Source of the DNA: Xanthomarina sp. F1114
Lineage (GTDB): Bacteria > Bacteroidota > Bacteroidia > Flavobacteriales > Flavobacteriaceae
Length of the DNA: 64,000 nucleotides
NCBI RefSeq assembly: GCF_026410255.1
Contig: NZ_JAPMLL010000004.1
Coordinates: forward strand, 62,001-126,000
Reading direction: 5' to 3'
A program made the translations under genes and the position numbers. Below are positions 22,685 through 58,301 of the stretch, one piece after another. Each line of letters begins with the position of its first letter. Within the stretch, counting starts at the first letter, position 1. The notes beneath the pieces were generated by a model. The model made no database searches. It saw nothing but the letters and a program-made list of their open reading frames with translations, and was not told where the DNA came from.

Positions 22685-25663
22685 TTAATGTGTATGACCT
22701 TCAACAGTATCACAGTGAAATGTTTGTTTTTCTTTTTTCTTAACAGGAACTGTTTTTAGTCCTTTATTTTTTGCCTGAAGCATCATATTAGTGAGTTCGT
22801 TTTTTTCTTGTTTCATCTCACGTCTTAATTGTTTATCTCTTTCTATATCAAAATAGGTGATACCATCAATCAATGTTTTCTCAGCCTTGGCGTAGATAGA
22901 TAAAGGGTTATGGCTCCATAATACTACATCCGCATCTTTTCCAACTTTAATACTTCCAACTCTATCGTCAATATGTAGTAATTTTGCCGGATTAAGGGTT
23001 ACAAACTTCCAGGCATCTTCTTCGCTAACGTCTCCGTATTTAACAGATTTTGCAGCTTCTTGATTTAATCTTCTAGACATTTCTGGATCATCACTATTAA
23101 TAGCAACTGTAATCCCAGCATTGTGCATAATTGCAGCATTATATGGGATGGCGTCGTTAACCTCGTACTTGTAAGCCCACCAATCGCTAAAAGTAGAGCC
23201 ACCAACACCGTGTTCTTTCATTTTGTCGGCAAGTTTATATCCTTCCAAAATATGTGTAAAGGTGTTTATATTAAAATCAAATTGATCAGCGACCTTCATC
23301 AGCATATTTATTTCACTTTGTACGTAAGAGTGACAACTAATAAAGCGTTCTTCATTTAATATTTCGACAAGTGTTTCCAGCTCCAGGTCTTTTCTATAAG
23401 GTTTGCCACTTTTTTTAAGTGTTTCGTATTCTTTAGCTCTTGTAAAATAATCGATGTAAACTTGTTCCACACCCATTCTTGTTTGAGGAAAACGTATATT
23501 AGCATGGCGACCCCAATTGGATTGTTTGACATTTTCTCCAAGAGCAAACTTGATGAATTTTGGACTGTCTGTATAGATTAAGTTATTTGCTGTTTCTCCC
23601 CATTTTAATTTTATAACTGCCGAGCGACCACCAATGGGATTAGCTGAACCATGAAGTATTTGAATAGACGTAACACCACCAGCAAGGTTGCGATAAATAC
23701 TTACATCTTCAGCGTCTATAACGTCCTCGATTGTAACTTCTGAAGATGCATTTTGTCCTGCCTCATTGACTGCTGAGGTTGCAATATGCGAATGCTCATC
23801 AATTATTCCAGATGTTAGATGCTTTCCTGTGGCATCTACTACTATGGCATTATTTTCGTTTAAATTGTTTCCTATTTTTGCAATTTTCCCGTTTTTAATT
23901 AAAACATCGGTCTCATTTAAGATTCCTTCTTGCTCATTAGTCCAAACGGTAGCATTTTTAAATAAAATGGTTTCTTGTTTAGGCATTGTTTTAAAACCAT
24001 ACGCTTCATTTGGATAATTAACAGGAATGAAAACTGGTGCATCTTTCTTGGTTTCTTTTTTATCTTTTGAGGTTGAATCTGTCTTTTCTATTTTCTTTGC
24101 GGAGAATGTGGTTTCATTTCCATTGGGTAAAAATGCCTTTCCCTTTATAGAATTGATATTTGAAATTTTTGATGTTAACCTGACATAATTTTGTTTCGTG
24201 GTATCAATATTAGAGAATGTAAGATTTAGCCAATTGTCTTGAAAAGAAATTTTTGAACCTAAGGTTTTCTCATTGGCTTTTACGGTCGATTTTAATTTTT
24301 CCATTTTCCCAGAAACATTTAAATCGTATGTGTTTCCGGCAAGTGAAATGCTATAATCTCCACGAATATCTTTGGTTGTCATAGAGGTGATTTCATATTT
24401 CTCACCTTTTACCCAGTTTTCATAAAGCGTGACATCTTTTTCGAAAATATCTCCAGAAGTAATTAAAAAATTAGCGTACGTCCCATCTTTTAAAGATCCA
24501 ATTTGGTTTTGCTTCCCTAATATTTCTGCAGGAACAGTTGTAAGAGCTTCTAAGGCCATGGTTTTATCTAAACCGCGTTCAATAGCTTTTAAAAGATTTG
24601 GCATAAACTCTTTAGGCTCCTTTAATCCTTTTAAAGTAAGAGTAAACTTGATGTTGTTCTCTGCCAATATTTTAGGATTTGAAGGCTTTTGATTCCATTC
24701 TCGTAAATCTGATAAATTAGCTGCTTCCGCAATAAACGGATCTTCCATATCAAAAGCTGCAGGAAAATCTATTGGAATAATAAATGTAGCTTGTGTTTCT
24801 TTAATGGCATCGATGCGTTCGTATTCATCACCTCCACCAACAATTACAAACTGCGTATTAATTTCGTCTCCAACTTTATCAAAGCGTAAAGCATTGACTT
24901 TACTTCCGGCATCTATTATTTGAACTAAAGATTTATTTGTATTATAAGCTTCAAGGGTTCTATCCGTTACTTTAGAATGACCATTTGCATACCACTCTGC
25001 ATCGTAATTTACTTGACGTAATAAAGCCATGGTTCCCATTAAAGACGTAGGATAAGACTGTCTGGATTGTACACTTTTTTTTGTTGAATAATATTGAGCA
25101 GAGCGATTATCTAATATCCTGGAAGCATCACCGCTATTAGGTGTTAAAGCTATTAAAGTACCGGTTCCTCTAATAATGCCATCTGGAATATGAGTGTTGA
25201 TAACACCAAAGCCTGCTTTACGTAAATTATTTGCTTCTTTTTGGTTGTATTTAAAATGTTCTATAGCATTTTGTTCCGAACGGATATGGTCGTTCCAATA
25301 AAAACCTTCACGATTTGAATCGTATTGTGGACTATTAGATTTTGCTGCTGCCTGAGGCTTTTCTAATCCGAAGTTTGAATAAATATCTATAAACGACGGA
25401 TAAATGGTTTTGTTAGAAGCGTCTATAATGACGGCGTTTTTAGGAATTGAAACTGAAATTCCTGTTGAAACAACTTTGCCATCTTTAATTAGCAATGTAG
25501 CATTTTCAATAACCTGATTAGGAGTTATATAAATTTTAGCATTGGTAATAGCTGTGTAATTAGTGTTCGTTGTGTGTACACCATCATTTTTCGGAAAATA
25601 CTCTTGTGCATAAGTGCTAATATAGCCCAATAACAGTACAAGAATGGAGAACTTTTTTATCAT
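22685..25663 (-). CDS. Large secreted two-module amidohydrolase
   Basis: 992 residues, signal peptide 1-19 (ending STYAQ). The first half (about 30-430) is an amidohydrolase-like module without the zinc motif: it reads YPSFIDIYSNFGLEK where HxH is expected. A beta-rich linker follows (about 430-570). The second half (about 570-960) is complete: HLTSGIIDEHSHIATSA gives HxH, ERFISCHSYVQ and ITHILEGY supply further His, and VAINSDDPEM gives the catalytic Asp. C-terminal tail is Lys/His-rich (TFHCDTVEGHTH). Probably a periplasmic hydrolase or isomerase of cyclic amides or peptides, substrate unknown. A -7-like TATTTTTA lies upstream. Co-transcribed with the smaller inactive-looking partner. Confidence 0.88.
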   Translation of the reverse strand: MIKKFSILVLLLGYISTYAQEYFPKNDGVHTTNTNYTAITNAKIYITPNQVIENATLLIKDGKVVSTGISVSIPKNAVIIDASNKTIYPSFIDIYSNFGLEKPQAAAKSNSPQYDSNREGFYWNDHIRSEQNAIEHFKYNQKEANNLRKAGFGVINTHIPDGIIRGTGTLIALTPNSGDASRILDNRSAQYYSTKKSVQSRQSYPTSLMGTMALLRQVNYDAEWYANGHSKVTDRTLEAYNTNKSLVQIIDAGSKVNALRFDKVGDEINTQFVIVGGGDEYERIDAIKETQATFIIPIDFPAAFDMEDPFIAEAANLSDLREWNQKPSNPKILAENNIKFTLTLKGLKEPKEFMPNLLKAIERGLDKTMALEALTTVPAEILGKQNQIGSLKDGTYANFLITSGDIFEKDVTLYENWVKGEKYEITSMTTKDIRGDYSISLAGNTYDLNVSGKMEKLKSTVKANEKTLGSKISFQDNWLNLTFSNIDTTKQNYVRLTSKISNINSIKGKAFLPNGNETTFSAKKIEKTDSTSKDKKETKKDAPVFIPVNYPNEAYGFKTMPKQETILFKNATVWTNEQEGILNETDVLIKNGKIAKIGNNLNENNAIVVDATGKHLTSGIIDEHSHIATSAVNEAGQNASSEVTIEDVIDAEDVSIYRNLAGGVTSIQILHGSANPIGGRSAVIKLKWGETANNLIYTDSPKFIKFALGENVKQSNWGRHANIRFPQTRMGVEQVYIDYFTRAKEYETLKKSGKPYRKDLELETLVEILNEERFISCHSYVQSEINMLMKVADQFDFNINTFTHILEGYKLADKMKEHGVGGSTFSDWWAYKYEVNDAIPYNAAIMHNAGITVAINSDDPEMSRRLNQEAAKSVKYGDVSEEDAWKFVTLNPAKLLHIDDRVGSIKVGKDADVVLWSHNPLSIYAKAEKTLIDGITYFDIERDKQLRREMKQEKNELTNMMLQAKNKGLKTVPVKKKEKQTFHCDTVEGHTH

Positions 25664-50537: not shown

Positions 50538-50555
50538 ACATGACTTTAGTCATGT
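50538..50555. promoter_or_regulatory. Crp/Fnr-like palindrome upstream of nirK
   Basis: ACATGACT-TT-AGTCATGT, a perfect 18-bp inverted repeat. It can be read as ATGAC-N4-GTCAT, the 5-4-5 layout of Crp/Fnr-family sites. Its centre (50546.5) lies about 41 bases before the start predicted from the TATATTTG element at 50576, the class II activator position, and about 66 bases before the start predicted from the element at 50601. Confidence 0.5.
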
Positions 50556-50575: not shown

Positions 50576-50583
50576 TATATTTG
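50576..50583 (+). promoter_or_regulatory. nirK promoter P1, -7 element
   Basis: Reads TATATTTG, perfect TAnnTTTG, 69 bases before the nirK ATG. The ACATGACT palindrome lies where an activator would sit for this promoter. Confidence 0.5.
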
Positions 50584-50597
50584 CAGTGTAGGATAGA

Positions 50598-50611
50598 GGA
50601 TAGATTTGTCC
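50598..50611 (+). promoter_or_regulatory. nirK promoter P2 overlapped by the GGAYA-N4-TRTCC palindrome
   Basis: GGATA-GATT-TGTCC contains the -7 element TAGATTTG (50601-50608), so a protein bound to the palindrome would block RNA polymerase. A second GGATAGA half-site stands directly before it (50591-50597). The same palindrome is found upstream of ric and at rrf2. It lies 41 bases before the nirK ATG. Confidence 0.6.
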
Positions 50612-50652
50612 GATTTATGTAATTTTAAAGAAAACCACTAAAAATCACACTT

Positions 50653-52113
50653 ATGAAATCAAACCAAAAATTAAAAAGAAACTTAGTAAAGAGTATTGCT
50701 TTGTTGGCAATGCCCATGTTTTTTGTAGCTTGTTTAAACGACAAGAAAGAAGAAACAAGCACAGCTGAAATACCTGTAAACCAGGAAATGATGGCTGAAT
50801 TAACCGCTCCTCCTAATGTGCCAACACCCGTTGGAACAAGAAAAGCAAAAAAACTTAAGGTTAATATGGAGATTCTTGAACAAGAAGGAGAATTAACTTC
50901 TGGAGTAAGATACAATTACTGGACTTTTGGAGGTTCTGTCCCTGGAAGCTTTATTAGAACAAGAGTTGGTGACGAAGTAGAATTTACATTATCTAACCAT
51001 CCAGATAATAAATTACCTCATAATATTGATTTGCATGCTGTAACAGGACCTGGAGGTGGAGCCGAATCGTCGTTCGTTGCACCAGGATTTGAAAAAACCT
51101 TTTCATTTAAAACCTTAAACCCAGGACTTTTTGTTTACCATTGTGCTACAGCACCAGTTGGAATGCACATTGCAAACGGAATGTATGGTTTAATTTTGGT
51201 TGAACCAGAAGGAGGTTTATCACCTGTTGATAAAGAATACTATATTATGCAAGGTGATTTCTACACCAAAGGTAAAAATGGTGAAAGAGGGTTACAACCA
51301 TTCGATATGCAGAAAGCTGTGGACGAAAATGCAGATTATGTTGTGTTTAACGGAAGTGTTGATGGTTTAACTGGAGACAACGCTATTACGGCTAAAGTAG
51401 GAGAGACTGTAAGACTTTATGTTGGTAACGGTGGTCCAAACTTAGTTTCATCTTTCCATGTAATTGGAGAAATTTTCGACAAAGTATATGTAGAAGGAGG
51501 AGACTTAATTAACGAAAACATTCAAACAACACTTATTCCAGCTGGAGGTGCTGCTATTGTTGAGTTTAGAGTGGATGTTCCTGGATCTTTAGTATTAGTA
51601 GATCACTCTATATTTAGAGCCTTTAATAAGGGTGCTTTAGGTATCTTAAATGTTGAAGGAGAAGAGAACGAGAAAATTTATTCTGGTGAAATATATGAAG
51701 GAATTTATTTGCCAGAAGGTCCTGGAATTCAAAGTATGCCTACTACAGATGAAATTGTGGAATCTGATGTACCAGCGAAGTCTATGGAAGAACAAATGAA
51801 ATTTGGTAAGCAAGTTTATATGCAAACCTGTTTTGCTTGTCACCAAGGGGAAGGCCAAGGTATTCCTAATGCGTTTCCTCCATTGGCAAAATCAGATTAT
51901 TTAAATGCTGATGTAAATCGTGCTATTAGTGCTGTGGTTAATGGACTTAGCGGCGAAATTACTGTAAACGGAGAGACTTATAATAGTGTTATGACAAGAC
52001 AGATGATTTCTTCTGAAGAGGTTGCTAATGTTCTGACTTATGTTTATAACAGCTGGGGTAATAATGGAACAGTAGTGTCTAAAGAAATGGTAGAGAAAGT
52101 TAAAAATCAATAA
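50653..52113 (+). CDS. nirK: Copper nitrite reductase fused to cytochrome c, lipoprotein
   Basis: 486 residues. Reduces nitrite to nitric oxide in the periplasm, the defining step of denitrification. Lipobox FVAC with Cys27. Two cupredoxin domains carry the complete ligand set: type 1 copper H123, C164, H172, M177; type 2 copper H128, H163, H318; catalytic D126 and H269. A cytochrome c domain follows (about 380-486) with CFACH (393-397) and a likely axial Met at 447, so electrons could enter through the heme. The fusion explains the length (plain NirK is about 350). Two -7 elements and two palindromes upstream. First gene of a nirK-SUMF1-SCO-porin run. Confidence 0.96.
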   Translation: MKSNQKLKRNLVKSIALLAMPMFFVACLNDKKEETSTAEIPVNQEMMAELTAPPNVPTPVGTRKAKKLKVNMEILEQEGELTSGVRYNYWTFGGSVPGSFIRTRVGDEVEFTLSNHPDNKLPHNIDLHAVTGPGGGAESSFVAPGFEKTFSFKTLNPGLFVYHCATAPVGMHIANGMYGLILVEPEGGLSPVDKEYYIMQGDFYTKGKNGERGLQPFDMQKAVDENADYVVFNGSVDGLTGDNAITAKVGETVRLYVGNGGPNLVSSFHVIGEIFDKVYVEGGDLINENIQTTLIPAGGAAIVEFRVDVPGSLVLVDHSIFRAFNKGALGILNVEGEENEKIYSGEIYEGIYLPEGPGIQSMPTTDEIVESDVPAKSMEEQMKFGKQVYMQTCFACHQGEGQGIPNAFPPLAKSDYLNADVNRAISAVVNGLSGEITVNGETYNSVMTRQMISSEEVANVLTYVYNSWGNNGTVVSKEMVEKVKNQ

Positions 52114-52129
52114 GAAAATAATAGAAAAT

Positions 52130-52906
52130 ATGAAAACCAAAGTCTTTAGTTTGTTTATAATATGTATCACGTTTCAATCTTTAATGTTTGGACAAGCTAA
52201 AGACATGGTTCTTATAGAAGGAAACCGATATATACCATTGTATGGTCGAGACTCGACTGTAGTAGAAGTGAAAGACTTTAGGATGGATGTCTATCCGGTA
52301 AGTGTTGAAGACTATACAAAATTTTTAAAAGAGAACCCGAAGTGGCGAAAATCTAAAGTAAAAGGATTATTCGCGGATAAAAGTTATTTGTCGAATTGGG
52401 ACTCAGATTTAAAAATGAACGATTCTGTTAACTCTAACAGTCCAATTACGAATGTATCTTGGTTTGCTGCCAAAGCTTATTGCGAATGTCAAGATAAACG
52501 TTTGCCAACTATTGATGAATGGGAATATGCGGCAATGGCAGACGAAACCACAAAAGATGCCCGAGTTAAGCCTGAGTACAATTCAAGAATTTTAGCTTGG
52601 TATGAAGCTCCAAAGAAACAACCTGTAATAGGGGAAAGTCCTAAAAATATATGGGGAGTTTATGATTTACATGGATTGGTTTGGGAGTGGACACTTGATT
52701 TTAATTCGGTATTAATAACGGGAGAATCTAGAAAAGATACCGACAAAGATAGTAACCTATTCTGTGGCAGTGCATCCATTAATGCTACAGACTTAATGAA
52801 TTATGCTGCCTTTATGCGTTATGCTATCAGAGGAAGTTTACAGGCGAAAAATTCTATGAAAAACTTAGGGTTTCGTTGCGTTCAGGACATAAAACAAAAT
52901 ATGTAA
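52130..52906 (+). CDS. Formylglycine-generating-enzyme-like (SUMF1 domain) exported protein of the nirK operon
   Basis: 258 residues with a signal peptide (1-22, ending LMFGQ). The SUMF1/FGE fold is clear: YPVSVEDYTKFLKENPKW, NVSWFAAKAYCECQDKRLPTIDEWEYAA (about 105-133), DLHGLVWEWTLDFN (about 182-195) and the C-terminal NLGFRCVQD. True sulfatase-activating FGE has RGGSW and an active Cys pair; here that place reads NLFCGSASINATDLMNYAAFMRY, so the biochemistry may differ. 16 bases after nirK and touching the SCO gene. Likely helps maturation or assembly of NirK or a partner; inference from position. Confidence 0.88.
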   Translation: MKTKVFSLFIICITFQSLMFGQAKDMVLIEGNRYIPLYGRDSTVVEVKDFRMDVYPVSVEDYTKFLKENPKWRKSKVKGLFADKSYLSNWDSDLKMNDSVNSNSPITNVSWFAAKAYCECQDKRLPTIDEWEYAAMADETTKDARVKPEYNSRILAWYEAPKKQPVIGESPKNIWGVYDLHGLVWEWTLDFNSVLITGESRKDTDKDSNLFCGSASINATDLMNYAAFMRYAIRGSLQAKNSMKNLGFRCVQDIKQNM

Positions 52907-53626
52907 ATGAAGAATTTAAAAGCTATTATATCTATGTTGATGTTATTAACTGTAATAACATCATGTAATTCTGATAAATCTAAGGCATCCCACGAGCAAT
53001 TAGTTGTATACCAATGCCCTATGAAGTGCGAAGGAGGTAAAACCTATGATGAAAATGTAAACTGCCCAATTTGTAAAATGGATCTTCAAGTAGTGGAAGG
53101 TGAAGTATCAAAAAAAGAAACCACAAATGAGATTTCAGATGAATCTATTTTTAACCTTACAAGTAAGTGGCATACAGAAGAAGATGAGGAAATTCAGCTA
53201 AAAGATTTAAAAGGGAAAAATTTAGTTATGGTTATGATTTATACGTCTTGTAAAGCTGCTTGTCCAAGACTAGTTGCCGATATGAGAAATATTGAAGCGC
53301 AAATTCCTAAAGAAAACCTTGGCGACCTTCAGTTTGTTCTAGTAAGTATAGACCCTACTGTAGACACACCAAAACGTCTTAAAGATTTTGCCAAAGAAAA
53401 TGCTATGAATGACGAACACTGGACATTTTTACAAGGTACAGAAAGTGGAGTCAGAGAATTTGCTAATGTATTATCGGTTAAATACAAAGAAATTTCACCG
53501 ATAGATTTTTCACATTCAAACATTATTAGTGTCTTTAATAAAGAAGGAGAATTAATTCACCAGCAAGAAGGTTTAGGTGTCGATAATAAAGAAACGGTTG
53601 AGTCTATTTTACAACTAACACAATAA
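52907..53626 (+). CDS. SCO1/SenC-family copper chaperone lipoprotein with Cys-rich N-terminal domain
   Basis: 239 residues. Lipobox VITSC (Cys20). Residues 35-62 form a heavy-metal-binding segment (QCPMKCEGG and VNCPICKMDL, four Cys plus Met). The thioredoxin-fold SCO domain (about 80-239) has the copper-binding C115-KAA-C119 and the third ligand H203 (DFSHSN). SCO proteins deliver copper to periplasmic copper enzymes; here NirK is the obvious client, given the operon. Starts directly after the SUMF1 gene with no gap. Confidence 0.92.
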   Translation: MKNLKAIISMLMLLTVITSCNSDKSKASHEQLVVYQCPMKCEGGKTYDENVNCPICKMDLQVVEGEVSKKETTNEISDESIFNLTSKWHTEEDEEIQLKDLKGKNLVMVMIYTSCKAACPRLVADMRNIEAQIPKENLGDLQFVLVSIDPTVDTPKRLKDFAKENAMNDEHWTFLQGTESGVREFANVLSVKYKEISPIDFSHSNIISVFNKEGELIHQQEGLGVDNKETVESILQLTQ

Positions 53627-53689
53627 TAATTAGTATTCAATAAATTATTGAAAGCGTTATAAAACGCGAAAATCCTTATAAAAATTCAG

Positions 53690-54964
53690 ATGAAAAAACT
53701 ATTAGCAGTCCTATGTATAGGACTTGGCATGGCGACTTATGCCCAAGAATTTGAAATTTCTGCCGAGTTAAGGCCGAGATTTGAATATAGACATGGATAC
53801 AAAACTCTAGCCGATGATATGCTTGATCCGGCAGCCTTTGTATCTCAACGTACACGGTTAAATTTTGGCTATAATAGCGAAAAGTTAAATGTTTATTTTA
53901 GTGCTCAAAACGTAAGAGTTTGGGGAGATGTAGCAACATCATCTTTATCCGATAAAAATGGAACAGCTATTCATGAAGCATGGGCAGAACTCTTGTTAAA
54001 TAATCAGTTCTCCTTGAAGTTTGGACGTCAAGAAATTATTTACGACGATCAGCGTATGTTTGGTAATGTTGGTTGGGCACAACAAGCTAGAAGTCACGAT
54101 GCTTTAATTGCAACGTTTAGGCCTAACGATAATAATAGAATAGACCTAGGTTTGGCAATTAGTGCCGAAAGTGAATCTTTATTTGAAATAGATTATAATG
54201 TTAATAATTATAAATCGTTTCAATATGTATGGTATCACGCCAATTTGGATAGCTTCGGATTAAGTTTTTTAGCACTTAATAATGGCTATGCGTTTGAAAA
54301 TAGCAATAATGAGCAAGAGGTAGATTACAATCAAACTTTTGGGACACATGCCACATATGGACAGAATAAATTAAAAGCAGATGCTTCTATCTATTTTCAA
54401 ACAGGAAAAATTGCCAACACTAAGTTAAGCGCATATAATTTTGCTTTAAATGCACATTACGCAATTGGCGAAAACTTTAATGTAGGCTTAGGTGGAGAAT
54501 ATTTGTCTGGAACCGATATGGACTCTAACAGTAACAAAATAGAGTCTTTTAATCCCTGGTATGGAACCAATCATAAATTTAATGGATGGATGGATTATTT
54601 CTATGTTGGAAACCATATAAACTCTGTAGGTTTATTAGATATTAATGCAACAGTCGCTTTTAATAAGAATAAATTTTCAGCTAAGTTAATGCCACATTTC
54701 TTTTCTTCGGCAGCAACTATTGTTGATGGGATGGGAGAGAAAATGAGTAATTCTTTAGGTACAGAAATCGATTTAGTGCTAGGTTATAGTTTGTCTAAAG
54801 ACATTCAGTTTCAAGTAGGATACTCTCAAATGTTTGCAACAGAAAGTATGGAAATTTTAAAAGGAGGCGATAAAAGTGAAACAAATAATTGGGCCTGGGC
54901 CATGATTGTTGTTAAACCATCATTATTTAAAACATCTTTTAAGAAAGCAGAGACTATAGATTAA
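53690..54964 (+). CDS. Outer-membrane porin (alginate-export-family barrel) of the nirK operon
   Basis: 424 residues. Signal peptide 1-18 (GMATYAQ). The rest is strand after strand of an outer-membrane barrel: ISAELRPRFEYRHGYKTL, RTRLNFGYNSEKLNVYFSAQNVRVWGD, EAWAELLLNNQFSLKFGRQEIIYDDQRMFGNVGW (about 95-128, the hallmark of the alginate-export/OprD-like family), AHYAIGENFNVGLGGEYLSG, ending VVKPSLFKTSFKKAETID. Probably lets nitrite or another small anion cross the outer membrane for NirK. 63 bases after SCO; a strong terminator follows. Confidence 0.88.
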   Translation: MKKLLAVLCIGLGMATYAQEFEISAELRPRFEYRHGYKTLADDMLDPAAFVSQRTRLNFGYNSEKLNVYFSAQNVRVWGDVATSSLSDKNGTAIHEAWAELLLNNQFSLKFGRQEIIYDDQRMFGNVGWAQQARSHDALIATFRPNDNNRIDLGLAISAESESLFEIDYNVNNYKSFQYVWYHANLDSFGLSFLALNNGYAFENSNNEQEVDYNQTFGTHATYGQNKLKADASIYFQTGKIANTKLSAYNFALNAHYAIGENFNVGLGGEYLSGTDMDSNSNKIESFNPWYGTNHKFNGWMDYFYVGNHINSVGLLDINATVAFNKNKFSAKLMPHFFSSAATIVDGMGEKMSNSLGTEIDLVLGYSLSKDIQFQVGYSQMFATESMEILKGGDKSETNNWAWAMIVVKPSLFKTSFKKAETID

Positions 54965-54975
54965 TTTTAAAATTT

Positions 54976-55013
54976 AAAAAACCTCTACAATTTATAAATT
55001 GTAGAGGTTTTTT
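54976..55013. terminator. Strong bidirectional terminator ending the nirK operon
   Basis: A 28-bp perfect palindrome (54981-55008; arm ACCTCTACAATTTA) flanked by AAAAA and TTTTT. It also faces the hemerythrin gene on the minus strand, separating the two convergent units. Confidence 0.9.
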
Positions 55014-55049
55014 GTTTTAAAAAGACTTGTATAAGATATATATTATGAA

Positions 55050-55511
55050 TTACTTCCAAAATTCATCATCCAGGTTGTCGTTAAAAGGCTCCGATTGATG
55101 AATTTTTTCTATATATAATAACTGCGCTTCCGTTGCAACCTTTTGTACCTCTGGAAAAAGAACTCGTTCTTCAAAGCGGATGTGTTGCTCTAATTCCTCT
55201 TCAATTTTACTCAAAGTTTTAGGTTCTACTTCGGTTTCAGAAAACAATCGCTTCAGACGCCTGTGCTCTGCTAATGCGCGTTTTACTAATTCATTGTTTT
55301 CATCTAAAATGGAAAAAATATGGGCTTCTTCCAATTCAAAATGAGGAATTAAATGATTTTCAAAAAACCAATCAGCATATGCTTTTATACGCTTTGGTTC
55401 GATACCTTTATTAAAACCACTTCTTATTTTCCAAGATAAAAGTAAGCCATGATGATGTTCTCTGCTTAAAGGTTGTAAGGCTTTATGACGTTTTTGAGGT
55501 TTAGTTTTCAT
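55050..55511 (-). CDS. Hemerythrin domain protein
   Basis: 153 residues, four-helix bundle with the di-iron ligands: LSREHHHGLLLSWKI (about 16-30), HFELEEAHIFSIL (about 54-66), AEHRRLKRL (about 82) and HIRFEERVLFPEVQ (about 111-124). Such proteins bind oxygen or nitric oxide or store iron. It overlaps the stop of the heme-copper/NnrS-like membrane protein by four bases, so the two are translated together. With Ric nearby this suggests nitric oxide handling. Cytoplasmic by sequence. Confidence 0.9.
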   Translation of the reverse strand: MKTKPQKRHKALQPLSREHHHGLLLSWKIRSGFNKGIEPKRIKAYADWFFENHLIPHFELEEAHIFSILDENNELVKRALAEHRRLKRLFSETEVEPKTLSKIEEELEQHIRFEERVLFPEVQKVATEAQLLYIEKIHQSEPFNDNLDDEFWK

Positions 55512-56695
55512 ACTAATTTGGTTTTGTAAATATTAAAAATAAGGCTAAAAACTCCTAAAGGAAGTAAGATACTACTAATAAATAGCAGGACATAATAGTT
55601 AGGCAACAATCCAATACCTACGTAGAATAAACAACCTTGAGCTATAATTATAATTTCGGTAAGAATAAATCCTAAAATAAAAATATACATACCATAATTT
55701 AAGTTTCTACTTTGTGTAACTAATTTACTTTGTAATATAAATGCAAATAAAAATCCACTAATAACTCCTAACATAGTTAAATGGATAAAACCAATAACTA
55801 AATTTCTATGTTGAAAAGCCATATTTGAAATCTCAGGAATTAGAGATAAGGTTTGGAGACCAATTTTTAGTATAAAACACAGCAATGAGAAGTGGAACAT
55901 ATATCTGGTAATTTTAGAACTGGAATCTAAAAGCTGCTTAAATGGTTTTTTAATTAATTTTAAAAACAGAATAAGACTTATAATTTGTAGAAATACGCCT
56001 AAGCCATTAATCCATAATAACGAAATATGTGGGGCAAACCAATTTACTGGAAGCGCAAAAGTTAGAATAGTAGAAATAATTAGTAATTTAAAAAATGTTC
56101 TAAATTCTTTAGAGTCCTTTATTTGAAGTTTATATATTAAAACGGCTAAAACGGCAATTAGAAACCAGCCATTAAACTGAAAATGTAAAAAGAACTGTAT
56201 GGCAATTTGATAAAAAGCAGATGCCTGACCTAATAAGCCAACAGCTGGTCCCAAACACCAAACGCCAATAGTAGAAACAGTCATAAAAATAAGAGAAGAC
56301 TTGAGTAAATAGCTAGTAACTACGGAATCTGTTTTATGATTTTTCCAAATAAGTCTAACAAAGTAATAACTACAAAATATATGAAGCGTAGAGAAGCTTA
56401 TTGATATAGCAGCATAGCCTTGAAATGGAAAGCTAATCATCATGCCTACTACTGCGAGTTCTGTAACCCAAAATAGTCTATTATAGATGGGTTTCTTTTC
56501 TGGAACAAAGAAATATATAAACAGTGTATAAAGCATTAAATACACCCATCCCAACATAGCCACATGAGAATGTGCATGTGTTAAAAATCTATAATTAAAT
56601 GGAATTGGCGAGATATAAGTATAGCGTAAAGCTAATCCCATGAGGGCGGCAATAAGAAAATTTATTAAGCAAGTAAGTACGAGCTTTTTGGGCAT
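55508..56695 (-). CDS. Polytopic membrane protein with NnrS/heme-copper-oxidase-I-like His motifs
   Basis: 395 residues, about 11-12 membrane helices. An early segment RFLTHAHSHVAMLGWVYLMLY puts several His in the second helix, and later GWFLIAVLAVLIYKL, NWFAPHISLLWINGLG and HRNLVIGFIHLTMLGVISGFLF repeat the His-near-membrane pattern. This resembles subunit I of heme-copper oxidases and NnrS-type heme proteins, but the canonical copper/heme ligands of NorB or CcoN are not all visible. It may be a nitric-oxide-linked membrane heme protein; I would not assign it as a NO reductase. Paired with hemerythrin, facing the nirK operon. Confidence 0.7.
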   Translation of the reverse strand: MPKKLVLTCLINFLIAALMGLALRYTYISPIPFNYRFLTHAHSHVAMLGWVYLMLYTLFIYFFVPEKKPIYNRLFWVTELAVVGMMISFPFQGYAAISISFSTLHIFCSYYFVRLIWKNHKTDSVVTSYLLKSSLIFMTVSTIGVWCLGPAVGLLGQASAFYQIAIQFFLHFQFNGWFLIAVLAVLIYKLQIKDSKEFRTFFKLLIISTILTFALPVNWFAPHISLLWINGLGVFLQIISLILFLKLIKKPFKQLLDSSSKITRYMFHFSLLCFILKIGLQTLSLIPEISNMAFQHRNLVIGFIHLTMLGVISGFLFAFILQSKLVTQSRNLNYGMYIFILGFILTEIIIIAQGCLFYVGIGLLPNYYVLLFISSILLPLGVFSLIFNIYKTKLV

Positions 56696-56864
56696 AAATT
56701 AAAATAAATAGCTGAGTTGTAAATATAAAGATATAATTAAAAAAAACACTCCTCTTGTATGACAAACTAAAGAAACATAAATTTACTCCTCAACAAATTT
56801 AAACTATTATTAGTAACAGGAGAAGTGCTTTTAATGAACAACTATTATAAATAAAAATTATAAT

Positions 56865-56904
56865 TAAACCTGGAAGTTTTATTGGGGAATGACTCCCAGG
56901 TTTA
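56865..56904 (-). terminator. Terminator after ric
   Basis: TAAACCTGG (56865-56873) pairs with CCAGGTTTA (56896-56904) over a 22-base loop, 23 bases past the ric stop on the minus strand; the minus-strand tail is AT-rich. The loop is long, so strength is moderate. Confidence 0.55.
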
Positions 56905-56926
56905 TATTAGAAAATACCATTAAAGA

Positions 56927-57658
56927 TTACTGAATAAGTTTTTCTAACTTTTCAGCTTCAGGGAATAAGATGTTATTTTCTAAATGTATATGTAAGTGTA
57001 AATCTTTTTCAAATTCATCCAACATAGCAAATGTTACTTTATAGGTATTACAAGCATCTGCTGGTGGAGTATAATTGTCTGATAGTTCGGCAATTTCTCT
57101 AAAACGTTCACCCTCATTTTCATGTTCTGCCATCATCATTGCAATTGGGTTCTTAACCGTACCAAATTGGGGAGATGTAACCGGACTTTTGTCTATTTGA
57201 GCTTTCACCATTTTTTTAATGAAAGGAAAAAGAATTAATTCTTCTTTTTTCATGTGCGAAGCTAACTCTCCTGTAGATGCAGTAAACAATTCGTTGATTT
57301 TAAATAATTCTGGATGTCTACCACCATGAACTTTACACAATTTGTCTAAAAATTGGTGTAAAACCGGAGTTTTTTCCTCTACATATCTGTGGTGTTTTTT
57401 CTCCACATACTCTGCTAATAAATCTAAAGGCCAAGATCTGTAATCTATAGACTGATCTGTATTAGTAGATACAACTTTTTCTAAATCGTTTAATAATAAG
57501 TTGCTATCAAGATTGTTTTTAGTACAAACTTCTTCAATAGTTCTATTTCCTTTGCAACAGAAATCTATTCCGTATTTAGAGAAAACTGATGCAGTTCTGT
57601 AATCTTCGGCAACATATTGGCCTATTTCCTTTTGTGATTCTTTACTTAATGTTTCCAT
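56927..57658 (-). CDS. ric: Iron-sulfur cluster repair di-iron protein (Ric/YtfE/ScdA)
   Basis: 243 residues. The ScdA_N domain (about 10-70) has YVAEDYRTASVFSKYGIDFCCKGNRTIEEVC with C34-C35. The hemerythrin-like di-iron domain (about 80-240) has EKKHHRYVEEKTPVLHQFL, HGGRHPEL, HMKKEELILFPFI, AEHENEGERFREI and HIHLENNILFPEAE. Repairs Fe-S clusters damaged by nitric oxide or oxidants. Downstream of the Rrf2 gene on the same strand, separated by 136 bases that contain the GGACA-AAAA-TATCC palindrome. Confidence 0.94.
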   Translation of the reverse strand: METLSKESQKEIGQYVAEDYRTASVFSKYGIDFCCKGNRTIEEVCTKNNLDSNLLLNDLEKVVSTNTDQSIDYRSWPLDLLAEYVEKKHHRYVEEKTPVLHQFLDKLCKVHGGRHPELFKINELFTASTGELASHMKKEELILFPFIKKMVKAQIDKSPVTSPQFGTVKNPIAMMMAEHENEGERFREIAELSDNYTPPADACNTYKVTFAMLDEFEKDLHLHIHLENNILFPEAEKLEKLIQ

Positions 57659-57761
57659 GTGCTTCTCCCAACCTTTTCTTTTATTTGTTATTCTTTCTAT
57701 GTTAAAAGAATTGGTGTTTTTAAGGGTGTTTTATTAATTAATACTTGTTTTTAATCTATTC

Positions 57762-57775
57762 GGATATTTTTGTCC
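57762..57775. promoter_or_regulatory. GGAYA-N4-TRTCC palindrome upstream of ric
   Basis: Plus strand GGATA-TTTT-TGTCC, about 104 bases before the ric ATG and 20 bases past the rrf2 stop. Unlike the nirK and rrf2 copies it does not fall on a minus-strand -7 element: the TATTTTTG inside it reads on the plus strand, away from ric. Confidence 0.55.
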
Positions 57776-57794
57776 TATTTGTTTTTAAATTTTT

Positions 57795-58229
57795 TTAAGT
57801 CTTTAAAAATGCTACTCCAGATTTTATGTCTAAAGCTAATTCTTCTAAATTAGTATGTTCAAGCATGTGTTTTAGTTCGTCTCTTACACTTTTAAATTTG
57901 TCGTGAACAGGGCAGGGATGGTTCTCATCGCAGGTATTCAACCCTAAACCACATCCTTTATAAATATTGTCGCCATCAATAGCATTTACAATTTGCGATA
58001 ATTTTATACTAGAAATAGCGTATTTATCTATCTCAAAACCACCATAAGCACCTTTTACAGATTTTATAATACCATTTCTTACTAAATCTTGAAGAATTTT
58101 TGCTGTAAAAGCTTCTGGCGAATTTATTTCCTTAGCAATAGCCTTAAGGCTTACCCGTTTACTTTCGTAAGAGTTCAAGGCTATAAAAATAGACGCCTTA
58201 ATTCCGTATTCGCATGCTTTAGAAAACAT
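57795..58229 (-). CDS. Rrf2-family regulator, NsrR-like (nitric oxide sensing)
   Basis: 144 residues. Winged helix: ACEYGIKASIFIALNS, VSLKAIAKEINSPEAFTAKILQDLVRNGIIKSVKGAYGGFEI (about 27-67, typical Rrf2 with the wing GAYGG). Three Cys for a [Fe-S] cluster: C93, C100, C106 (KGCGLGLNTCDENHPCPVHD region), close to NsrR/IscR spacing. Neighbouring nirK and ric and the shared palindrome make a nitric-oxide-responsive repressor the best reading; IscR-like iron-sulfur control is the alternative. A 38-bp palindrome covers its own promoter, suggesting autoregulation. Confidence 0.88.
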   Translation of the reverse strand: MFSKACEYGIKASIFIALNSYESKRVSLKAIAKEINSPEAFTAKILQDLVRNGIIKSVKGAYGGFEIDKYAISSIKLSQIVNAIDGDNIYKGCGLGLNTCDENHPCPVHDKFKSVRDELKHMLEHTNLEELALDIKSGVAFLKT

Positions 58230-58263
58230 ATATTCTTTTTAATTATGGTACAAATGTAAATTA

Positions 58264-58301
58264 AATATTTAATACGGACAAACTTATCCGAATTAAATAT
58301 T
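58264..58301 (-). promoter_or_regulatory. rrf2 promoter inside a 38-bp palindrome (autoregulatory operator)
   Basis: The core GGACA-AACT-TATCC (58276-58289) is the same palindrome as at nirK and ric. On the minus strand it contains the -7 element TAAGTTTG (58279-58286), about 50 bases before the rrf2 ATG. The arms extend to 17 bases on each side (AATATTTAATACGGACA against the complement of TATCCGAATTAAATATT), matching at 15 of 17. Confidence 0.65.

Follow-up and report, generated by a model that had tools for sequence, protein, structure and literature searches.

The window, the whole 64-kb stretch of Xanthomarina sp. F1114 DNA analysed here, carries nirK on the plus strand (50653-52113) and, on the minus strand, rrf2 (57795-58229) and ric (56927-57658). 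The nirK product is a copper nitrite reductase with a C-terminal cytochrome c domain (TIGR02376, 355.9 bits, cut-off 296.3; Pfam cytochrome c). The rrf2 gene encodes a 144-aa protein of the Rrf2 family (PF02082, 86.2 bits, cut-off 30; TIGR00738 (rrf2_super), 87.2 bits, cut-off 73.3), and ric a di-iron iron-sulfur cluster repair protein of the YtfE/ScdA/DnrN type (TIGR03652, 239.7 bits, cut-off 204.7). An earlier, sequence-only reading had located the palindrome GGAYA-N4-TRTCC before all three genes, and its coordinates proved exact. The candidate operators are GGATAGATTTGTCC before nirK (50598-50611, plus strand), GGACAAAAATATCC in the rrf2-ric intergenic region (57762-57775, minus strand) and, before rrf2, a longer minus-strand element (58264-58301) with the core GGATAAGTTTGTCC at 58276-58289. 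All three are exact matches, scoring 11.9, 18.0 and 36.3 bits, respectively, with a matrix built from rrf2 promoters only, on which the nirK site is the weakest. The rrf2 palindrome has arms of 17 bases that match at 15 positions, again as had been described.

Frequency and placement of the palindrome

Three exact sites in the window compare with 0.11 expected (shuffle mean), and none of 100 shuffles reached three. The form RGAYA-N4-TRTCY occurs four times (0.81 expected), and GGAYA-N4-TRTCC with one mismatch allowed is not enriched in the window (6 found, 3.4 expected). The complete 3.25-Mb genome holds four exact sites versus 13 for the reversed pattern, so that the placement of the sites, rather than their number, is the unusual feature of the genome; the random chance of three of the four falling within 7.7 kb is 7.5e-5. 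The extended pattern likewise gives three sites versus five reversed, and genome-wide the motif does not exceed the reversed control here or in most of 60 family genomes. The question of whether the palindrome is as common as chance predicts thus has a divided answer, with a plain count not above the control and a placement far from random. Matches to RGAYA-WWWW-TRTCY in the genome score 4.1 bits or less, except for the ric site, a site at a third Rrf2 gene (17.7 bits) and one before an ApbC gene (12.0 bits). The fourth exact site lies within an open reading frame, has a background matrix score and was set aside as a chance match.

Conservation in relatives

After removal of promoters shorter than 110 bases, of matches that were shorter than 120 aa or began beyond residue 3, and of identical promoters, 142 of 146 distinct rrf2 promoters matched RGAYA-N4-TRTCY at 9 or more of 10 positions, against 2.9% of dinucleotide shuffles. 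Class-wide, the same score was reached at 24/29 rrf2 loci (4.8% of shuffles), including 21/25 outside the family of the window. The matrix found sites of at least 12 bits before ric (93/117), nirK (37/65, the other 28 scoring lower) and the qNOR gene norB (11/18), as against 0/301 other mapped genes used as controls; upstream regions that were identical or below 220 bases were excluded, as were matches beginning beyond residue 40, and o49 (3/6) was not counted among the controls, since nirK and o49 have one intergenic region in common. Of 79 named relatives, 66 have the strict palindrome directly behind rrf2 and ahead of ric or norB. The palindrome proposed as common to nirK, ric and rrf2 recurs in relatives in front of these genes; a lack of conservation, on which the proposal could have failed, did not occur. 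Chance palindromes, for which the intragenic fourth site and the unremarkable genome count could speak, are refuted by this conservation together with the control genes, and their probability is practically nil.

The shared motif stands, but its strict form is too narrow. In five close relatives (L005, L006, L007, L008 and L086) the nirK site has T as its fifth base (RGAYT) and gives no strict match, and the matrix gives low scores to those of L005 and L007 as well. The candidate operator is better written as RGAYA-N4-TRTCY within the inverted, AT-rich flanks TTAATTA...TAATTAA. With a site of at least 9/10 in nearly all rrf2 promoters, autoregulation by Rrf2, as earlier proposed, is very likely.

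Promoter architecture

The refined -7 consensus of Flavobacterium is TAHHTTTG (PMC6847099). A fitting element, TATATTTG, lies before nirK at 50576-50583 (plus strand) and predicts a transcript start at about 50588; the rrf2 counterpart, TACATTTG, lies at 58251-58258 (minus strand), with a predicted start at about 58246. No consensus -7 element was seen for ric in the window. The sequence-only reading had instead placed the -7 elements of nirK and rrf2 inside the palindromes, where a bound protein would cover them. The strings concerned, TAGATTTG and TAAGTTTG, do occur there, but each breaks TAHHTTTG by carrying a G at a position where, according to the available part of PMC6847099, the consensus virtually never has one. 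In relatives, the fitting elements stand outside the palindrome at a fixed distance: TAnnTTTG is found downstream of the site in 127/142 rrf2 promoters (embedded in it in 70/142) and begins 30-32 bases beyond the start of the site in 112/142, while in nirK promoters with a Crp/Fnr site before the Rrf2 site TAHHTTTG follows the former at the same offset of 35 in 28/37. The embedded version is therefore very improbable, and TATATTTG and TACATTTG are probably the real -7 elements. It follows that the candidate operator would lie over the -33 region at rrf2 (core at a predicted -43 to -30) and, probably, just after the transcript start at nirK (predicted +11 to +24), positions that suit a repressor.

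The nirK promoter also contains a Crp/Fnr-like palindrome, ACATGACTTTAGTCATGT (50538-50555, plus strand), whose core TGAC-N4-GTCA (50541-50552) is centred at -41.5 from the predicted start. TGACN4GTCA occurs once in the window (0.35 expected), and a TGAY-N4-RTCA palindrome at -41.5 of a start, here a predicted one, is the arrangement of a Crp/Fnr-regulated promoter; four HTH_Crp_2 proteins are encoded in the genome. In relatives, the predicted Rrf2 site lies downstream of the Crp/Fnr site in 33 nirK promoters, with 53-59 bp to the Crp/Fnr centre in 31 of them, and in 9/65 it abuts the Crp/Fnr site upstream, near -61, with a centre distance of 17-20 bp. A repressor that acts by simple steric hindrance would less typically have this second layout, and proteins of the IscR type can activate transcription. 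Rrf2 might thus activate nirK or help the Crp/Fnr protein to do so, whether in certain species or in every one, an idea that we consider highly unlikely since the 31 of 33 downstream sites fall inside the predicted transcript, an implausible place for an activator.

The Rrf2 protein

The putative Fe-S ligands of the window protein are Cys93-X6-Cys100-X5-Cys106 and His109. The three cysteines (C-X6-C-X5-C) and His109 are invariant in 172/172 relatives, a set collected by similarity to the window protein, and Glu7 is kept in 95%. Fe-S-binding Rrf2 proteins are marked by three cysteines conserved in the cluster loop, and the window protein, with a putative cluster, has them. Its equivalog scores are far below the cut-offs for NsrR (27.3 bits, cut-off 182), IscR (53.7 bits, cut-off 207.55) and the SUF regulator (53 bits, cut-off 110.65), and in NCBIfam the models for IscR, the SUF regulator and CymR all rank higher than that for NsrR; by this measure, the window protein is not NsrR. 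Most likely, it belongs to a subfamily of autoregulated Fe-S-type repressors that would use the palindrome as operator. In the alignment with IscR, His109, which follows Cys106 by two residues, falls on a His that serves there as a cluster ligand.

Because of these NCBIfam scores and the alignment of His109, the same repressor and operator may possibly respond to iron, redox or Fe-S cluster status in the manner of IscR and SUF regulators, with ric and an ApbC-type carrier as targets in Fe-S repair and assembly. Sites before an ApbC/Mrp gene in this genome and in a sister species agree with such a signal. The targets found in relatives among the mapped genes and in the 15-genome scan are, however, mostly NO and N-oxide genes (nirK, qNOR, nosZ and, by neighbourhood, globin), and we consider this alternative to an NO signal unlikely. 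Like the window protein, IscR and SUF regulators combine the Rrf2 fold with conserved cysteines and a His that follows the last Cys by two residues, and IscR is autoregulated, but the window protein is far under their equivalog cut-offs and the targets found are mainly N-oxide genes.

Proposed regulation

From the observed sites, their conservation, the target genes and the ligand residues, we infer binding, repression, transcript starts and an NO signal, combined in a model to which we assign a probability of about 0.7. A dimeric Fe-S Rrf2 would bind RGAYA-N4-TRTCY on the -33 region of its own promoter, before ric and just 3' of the nirK start, repressing all three genes. NO or nitrosative damage would destroy or alter the cluster and release the DNA, whereupon ric (repair), nirK and rrf2 would be induced together; at nirK, a Crp/Fnr-type protein bound at -41.5 would activate in addition to this release.

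The proposed system resembles the NsrR regulon in its Rrf2-family protein and predicted nitrite/NO-responsive repression, in its targets, which for NsrR include dnrN/ytfE (ric), nirK and norB and here are ric, nirK and norB, and in the pairing with a Crp/Fnr-type site, an FNR site at hcp there and a Crp/Fnr-like site at nirK here (PMC1274295). Sites before nosZ operons add to these NO-related targets. The operators differ, being gATGyAT-N5-ATrCATc for NsrR (PMC1274295) and RGAYA-N4-TRTCY with AT arms here. ATGYATN5ATRCAT with up to two mismatches was found 14 times in the window (15.9 expected), never upstream of nirK, ric or rrf2. In the accessible part of PMC1274295, NsrR is placed in proteobacteria, bacilli and actinobacteria, and HcpR is named for Bacteroides. 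The TGAY-N4-RTCA site at nirK is of the general type of HcpR, NnrR and DNR, but these Crp/Fnr-type NO regulators belong to another protein family, and the site is separate from the Rrf2 palindrome.

Paralogues and a possible wider regulon

At least two further Rrf2 paralogues with similar promoter sites are encoded in the genome. Paralogue B, beside a CcoN-like oxidase or NO-reductase gene, has AGATAGTTTTGTCA at -62, and AGATATTTTTATCC lies 26 nt upstream of paralogue C; no qNorB was found in this genome in a search run without a positive control. In relatives, Rrf2 proteins of 37-58% identity encoded beside norB or nosZ have the same palindrome. The operator might accordingly be shared, with paralogues B and C also binding and nirK and ric under several Rrf2 proteins or mainly another one, which we regard as rather unlikely: ric directly adjoins the window rrf2, and nirK sites track its close orthologue. 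A nirK site of at least 11 bits was present in 13/13 genomes with an Rrf2 at least 70% identical versus 3/24 other scored nirK genomes (Fisher about 1e-7, a 25th genome being taken as negative), the genomes being related and both cut-offs picked after seeing the data. The 25th genome (G123, L113), with no matrix row for nirK, was scored negative because its simple score was low. Where Rrf2 is more distant, the matrix scan found no nirK site in most of the nirK genomes.

On a class-wide reading, to which we give even odds, a family of Rrf2 paralogues would use the one operator RGAYA-N4-TRTCY, each autoregulated and tied to its own module (nitrite reductase and repair, NO reductase, nosZ, globin). 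Through this common operator they would form one cross-wired network for denitrification and NO defence in place of NsrR/NnrR, joined at nirK by a Crp/Fnr site in either of two fixed arrangements. Such a recurrent operator would help to explain how denitrification and nitric-oxide defence are switched on and off in the group, and several regulators with one operator raise the question of how cross-talk is avoided or exploited. Both nirK and clade II nosZ are common among Flavobacteria and their relatives, which therefore bear on N2O release and uptake. With a named operator and its matching regulator, the regulation becomes open to direct testing, and a motif is at hand for annotating many genomes. 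Clade II nosZ occurs in Flavobacteriales, and rrf2 genes adjoin clade II nos clusters, many of which come from this order (PMC6264515); this neighbourhood was already known, and the accessible part of that account contains no operator or regulon. For Melioribacter, an Rrf2 gene near nos is only mentioned in the accessible part of PMC3534657. No operator or regulon for the denitrification genes of Flavobacteria and their relatives was found described in the open literature searched, RegPrecise and most subscription journals being outside the scope.

Class-wide, the neighbours of rrf2 include bacterial globin and ric (ten proteins scanned, 9/29 loci). A scan of 15 genomes with the extended pattern returned 55 sites versus 14 for the reversed pattern; by coordinates, 42/55 lie at rrf2, ric, nirK, nosZ or nor operons, five nosZ operons among them, and the other 13 are background or undecided, in line with the 14 reversed. 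These 13 include sites before FabA, PAPS-reductase, rhodanese, porin and ApbC genes, at the third Rrf2 gene of the Xanthomarina genome, and before cupin or ferredoxin-cupin genes with no following norB in view. Two more (L266 and L273) have no clear gene, and another two (G137:C40 and G035:C20) were left undecided.

Three conserved palindromes at nirK, ric and rrf2

The window encodes a nirK carrying a cytochrome c domain (TIGR02376), ric (identified by TIGR03652) and an Rrf2-family regulator (57795-58229). The interval from nirK to ric holds FGE-sulfatase-like, SCO1/SenC, alginate-export-type porin and hemerythrin genes, together with one for a membrane protein which had no match in Pfam or NCBIfam and which we take to be NnrS-like. 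The FGE-sulfatase-like gene (52130-52906) sits between nirK and the SCO1 gene, an order kept in many relatives' nirK clusters.

The strict pattern GGAYA-N4-TRTCC has three exact matches in the window, at 50598-50611 (nirK), 57762-57775 (ric) and 58276-58289 (rrf2), precisely where the sequence-only reading had located a candidate NO-responsive Rrf2 operator. Shuffled sequence gave a mean of 0.11 matches, with three reached in none of 100 shuffles. The relaxed form RGAYA-N4-TRTCY matched four times (0.81 expected), the fourth at 25050, and allowing one mismatch gave no enrichment in the window (6 found, 3.4 expected). Across the genome (3.25 Mb, 56 contigs) the strict pattern is not enriched by number, with 4 exact matches versus 13 for the reversed control; for most of the 60 family genomes compared, too, the control was at least as common. 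The unusual feature is the non-random clustering at these genes (P = 7.5e-5 for 3 of 4 random sites inside 7.7 kb). The fourth exact genome site lies within an open reading frame, has a matrix score at background level and was rejected as an operator.

Conservation was assessed in the best 80 of 518 confirmed rrf2 relatives with flanks. Among these, the strict pattern was found upstream of rrf2 in 26/80 and directly behind rrf2, ahead of ric or norB, in 66/79; the relaxed form was found in 67/80 and 71/79, respectively. In three control stretches the strict form was absent (0/80, 0/79 and 0/78) and the relaxed form occurred 0, 0 and 2 times. When distinct rrf2 promoters were pooled, own genome included, 142 of 146 scored at least 9 out of 10 and 117 had a perfect site, scores of 9 and 10 being reached by 2.9 and 0.08% of dinucleotide shuffles. 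The consensus of these promoters is a 28-base inverted repeat, TTAATTA-RGAYAAATTTRTCY-TAATTAA. Class-wide, 24 of 29 loci scored at least 9 (4.8% of shuffles), a good site being absent from the other five; 21 of the 25 loci outside the window's family reached this score, four of the 29 belonging to that family.

A weight matrix built from rrf2 promoters only was applied to the 220 bases upstream of the other mapped genes. At least 12 bits were reached by ric in 93/117, nirK in 37/65 and norB in 11/18 cases (rrf2, the training set, 137/141), and by 0/301 controls (nnrS, hemerythrin, porin, sco, FGE-like, parA and two other neighbours). The gene o49, divergent from nirK and with a site in 3/6, was excluded from the controls because the nirK intergenic region is common to both. 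Eight of the 24 ric genes lacking a site stand behind norB (order rrf2-norB-ric), with the site before norB instead. In the window the scores are 36.3 (rrf2), 18.0 (ric) and 11.9 bits (nirK), the next best stretch reaching 7.8. The palindrome is thus kept in relatives at the same genes, rrf2, ric and nirK, and also stands before norB; the observation is confirmed and, by its conservation, stronger than originally claimed.

Promoter layout

According to PMC6847099, Flavobacterium promoters have TAHHTTTG as their -7 element; G stands at -5 and is virtually absent from -10 and -9, and the -33 motif is far less evident. The -7 elements proposed within the nirK and rrf2 palindromes, TAGATTTG and TAAGTTTG, each carry a G disfavoured at -10/-9 by that description. 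Fitting TAHHTTTG elements lie outside the palindromes, TATATTTG at 50576-50583 for nirK and TACATTTG at 58251-58258 for rrf2. In the 142 well-scoring rrf2 promoters, TAnnTTTG follows the palindrome in 127, at an offset of 30-32 in 112, and is embedded in 70. The mostly fixed offset would place the rrf2 palindrome core at about -43 to -30. The nirK start is predicted near 50588, with the palindrome at +11 to +24. No consensus -7 element was seen at ric in the window; in relatives' ric, TTTG begins 14 bases before the site in 50/93. The sequence-only reading is right in outline, as to a shared conserved operator, and very probably wrong in setting that operator on the -7 element at nirK and rrf2.

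A Crp/Fnr-like palindrome, ACATGACTTTAGTCATGT, at 50538-50555 is centred at -41.5 from the predicted nirK start, and its core TGAC-N4-GTCA (50541-50552) is the only such match in the window. Four HTH_Crp_2 proteins in the genome are candidate Crp/Fnr-type binders. Similar sites occur in most relatives' nirK promoters bearing the Rrf2 site, and TAHHTTTG lies at the identical distance in 28/37 nirK promoters with a Crp/Fnr-like match before the Rrf2 site. Across 65 nirK promoters, the Rrf2 site is downstream of the Crp/Fnr-like site in 33 (centres 53-59 bp apart in 31) and upstream in 12; 19 have no Rrf2 site of at least 5 bits and one has no Crp/Fnr-like match. Of the upstream cases, nine abut at 17-20 bp, two (L076, L077) are explained by a divergent rrf2 with its own site, and one (L209) is remote. 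The abutting arrangement is a second discrete nirK layout, poorly explained by simple repression. These nine promoters, with their nearly fixed distance, are L038, L048, L053, L061, L062, L070, L090, L092 and L094.

The Rrf2 protein and its paralogues

The motif C-X6-C-X5-C, with His two residues past the last Cys, is kept in 172/172 relatives of the window Rrf2, and Glu7 in 95%. NCBIfam assigns the protein to the Rrf2 superfamily, but its scores fall far below the cut-offs for NsrR (27.3 of 182) and IscR (53.7 of 207.55). CymR and IscR rank first among relatives of solved structure, and none of the 13 such matches up to E 10 is labelled NsrR. In its predicted target genes the window Rrf2 resembles NsrR, but neither its sequence nor its operator is that of an NsrR. 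Rodionov et al. 2005 (PMC1274295) described the operator and regulon of NsrR, PMC9338935 treats the NsrR, IscR and RsrR operators, and PMC6264515 reports Rrf2 genes enriched at clade II nos clusters. No operator for this bacterial group was found in the literature covered, largely open-access papers, with regulon databases such as RegPrecise outside it.

The genome encodes at least two further Rrf2 proteins. One, 57% identical (L176:5807-9132 with its neighbours, G000:C52), has AGATAGTTTTGTCA at -62 and is followed by 603-aa CcoN-like and 339-aa CcoO/cytochrome c proteins, a pair that may form an oxidase or NO reductase of unusual type. The other, 31% identical (L280:4629-5132, G000:C3), has AGATATTTTTATCC 26 bases upstream. 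The palindrome is common to several Rrf2 clades, and sequence therefore cannot support the window Rrf2 as exclusive repressor of all three genes. NO is a putative signal, and the window Rrf2 a candidate for the acting paralogue.

Within the family, nirK is found in 38/199 genomes and Rrf2 relatives in 94/199. All 13 nirK genomes whose Rrf2 has 70% identity or more carry a nirK site scoring 11 bits or higher, versus 3/24 of the others scored (Fisher ~1e-7, one unscored nirK genome counted as negative). As this test ignores relatedness and its cut-offs were chosen post hoc, the apparent tendency of nirK site and close Rrf2 orthologue to travel together is support, not proof. The close relatives L005 and L007 have a poor nirK site despite a close regulator. 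Four nirK promoters (L109, L110, L111, L114), from genomes that lack a close Rrf2 or have only a more distant one, carry a variant palindrome of the form RGAYAAAAARRTCT, which may be another regulator's.

Wider candidate regulon

In 15 genomes the extended pattern gave 55 sites versus 14 for its reverse (own genome alone, 3 versus 5). By position and family scans, 42 of the 55 are at rrf2, the rrf2-ric intergenic region, nirK, or nos or NO-reductase operons. Five nos operons have a site, NosZ being confirmed in three (L268, L282, L272) and the others (L267, L276) recognized by the same gene order. L276 also has a pair of cytochrome c and COX1-type genes resembling a cNOR, its NorB-cytochrome match being below cut-off. 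In L264 and L269 the operator precedes small ferredoxin-like and cupin-like genes and then qNorB; Pfam gave no match for the first small gene in L264, and in L269 the match to cupin falls slightly below cut-off. L283 combines an rrf2 paralogue with qNorB. A small cupin-like gene stands immediately before qNorB, with the operator ahead, in L264, L269 and L283, accompanied by the ferredoxin-like gene in L269. Among class-wide loci, a bacterial globin gene follows rrf2 in first or second place in 5/9 (one or two genes scanned in each); other loci have ric or norB in the flanking sequence examined. RGAYA-N4-TRTCY also stands ahead of an ApbC/Mrp-type Fe-S carrier gene in the own genome (L281:3779-4975) and in a sister species (L279:2760-3944).
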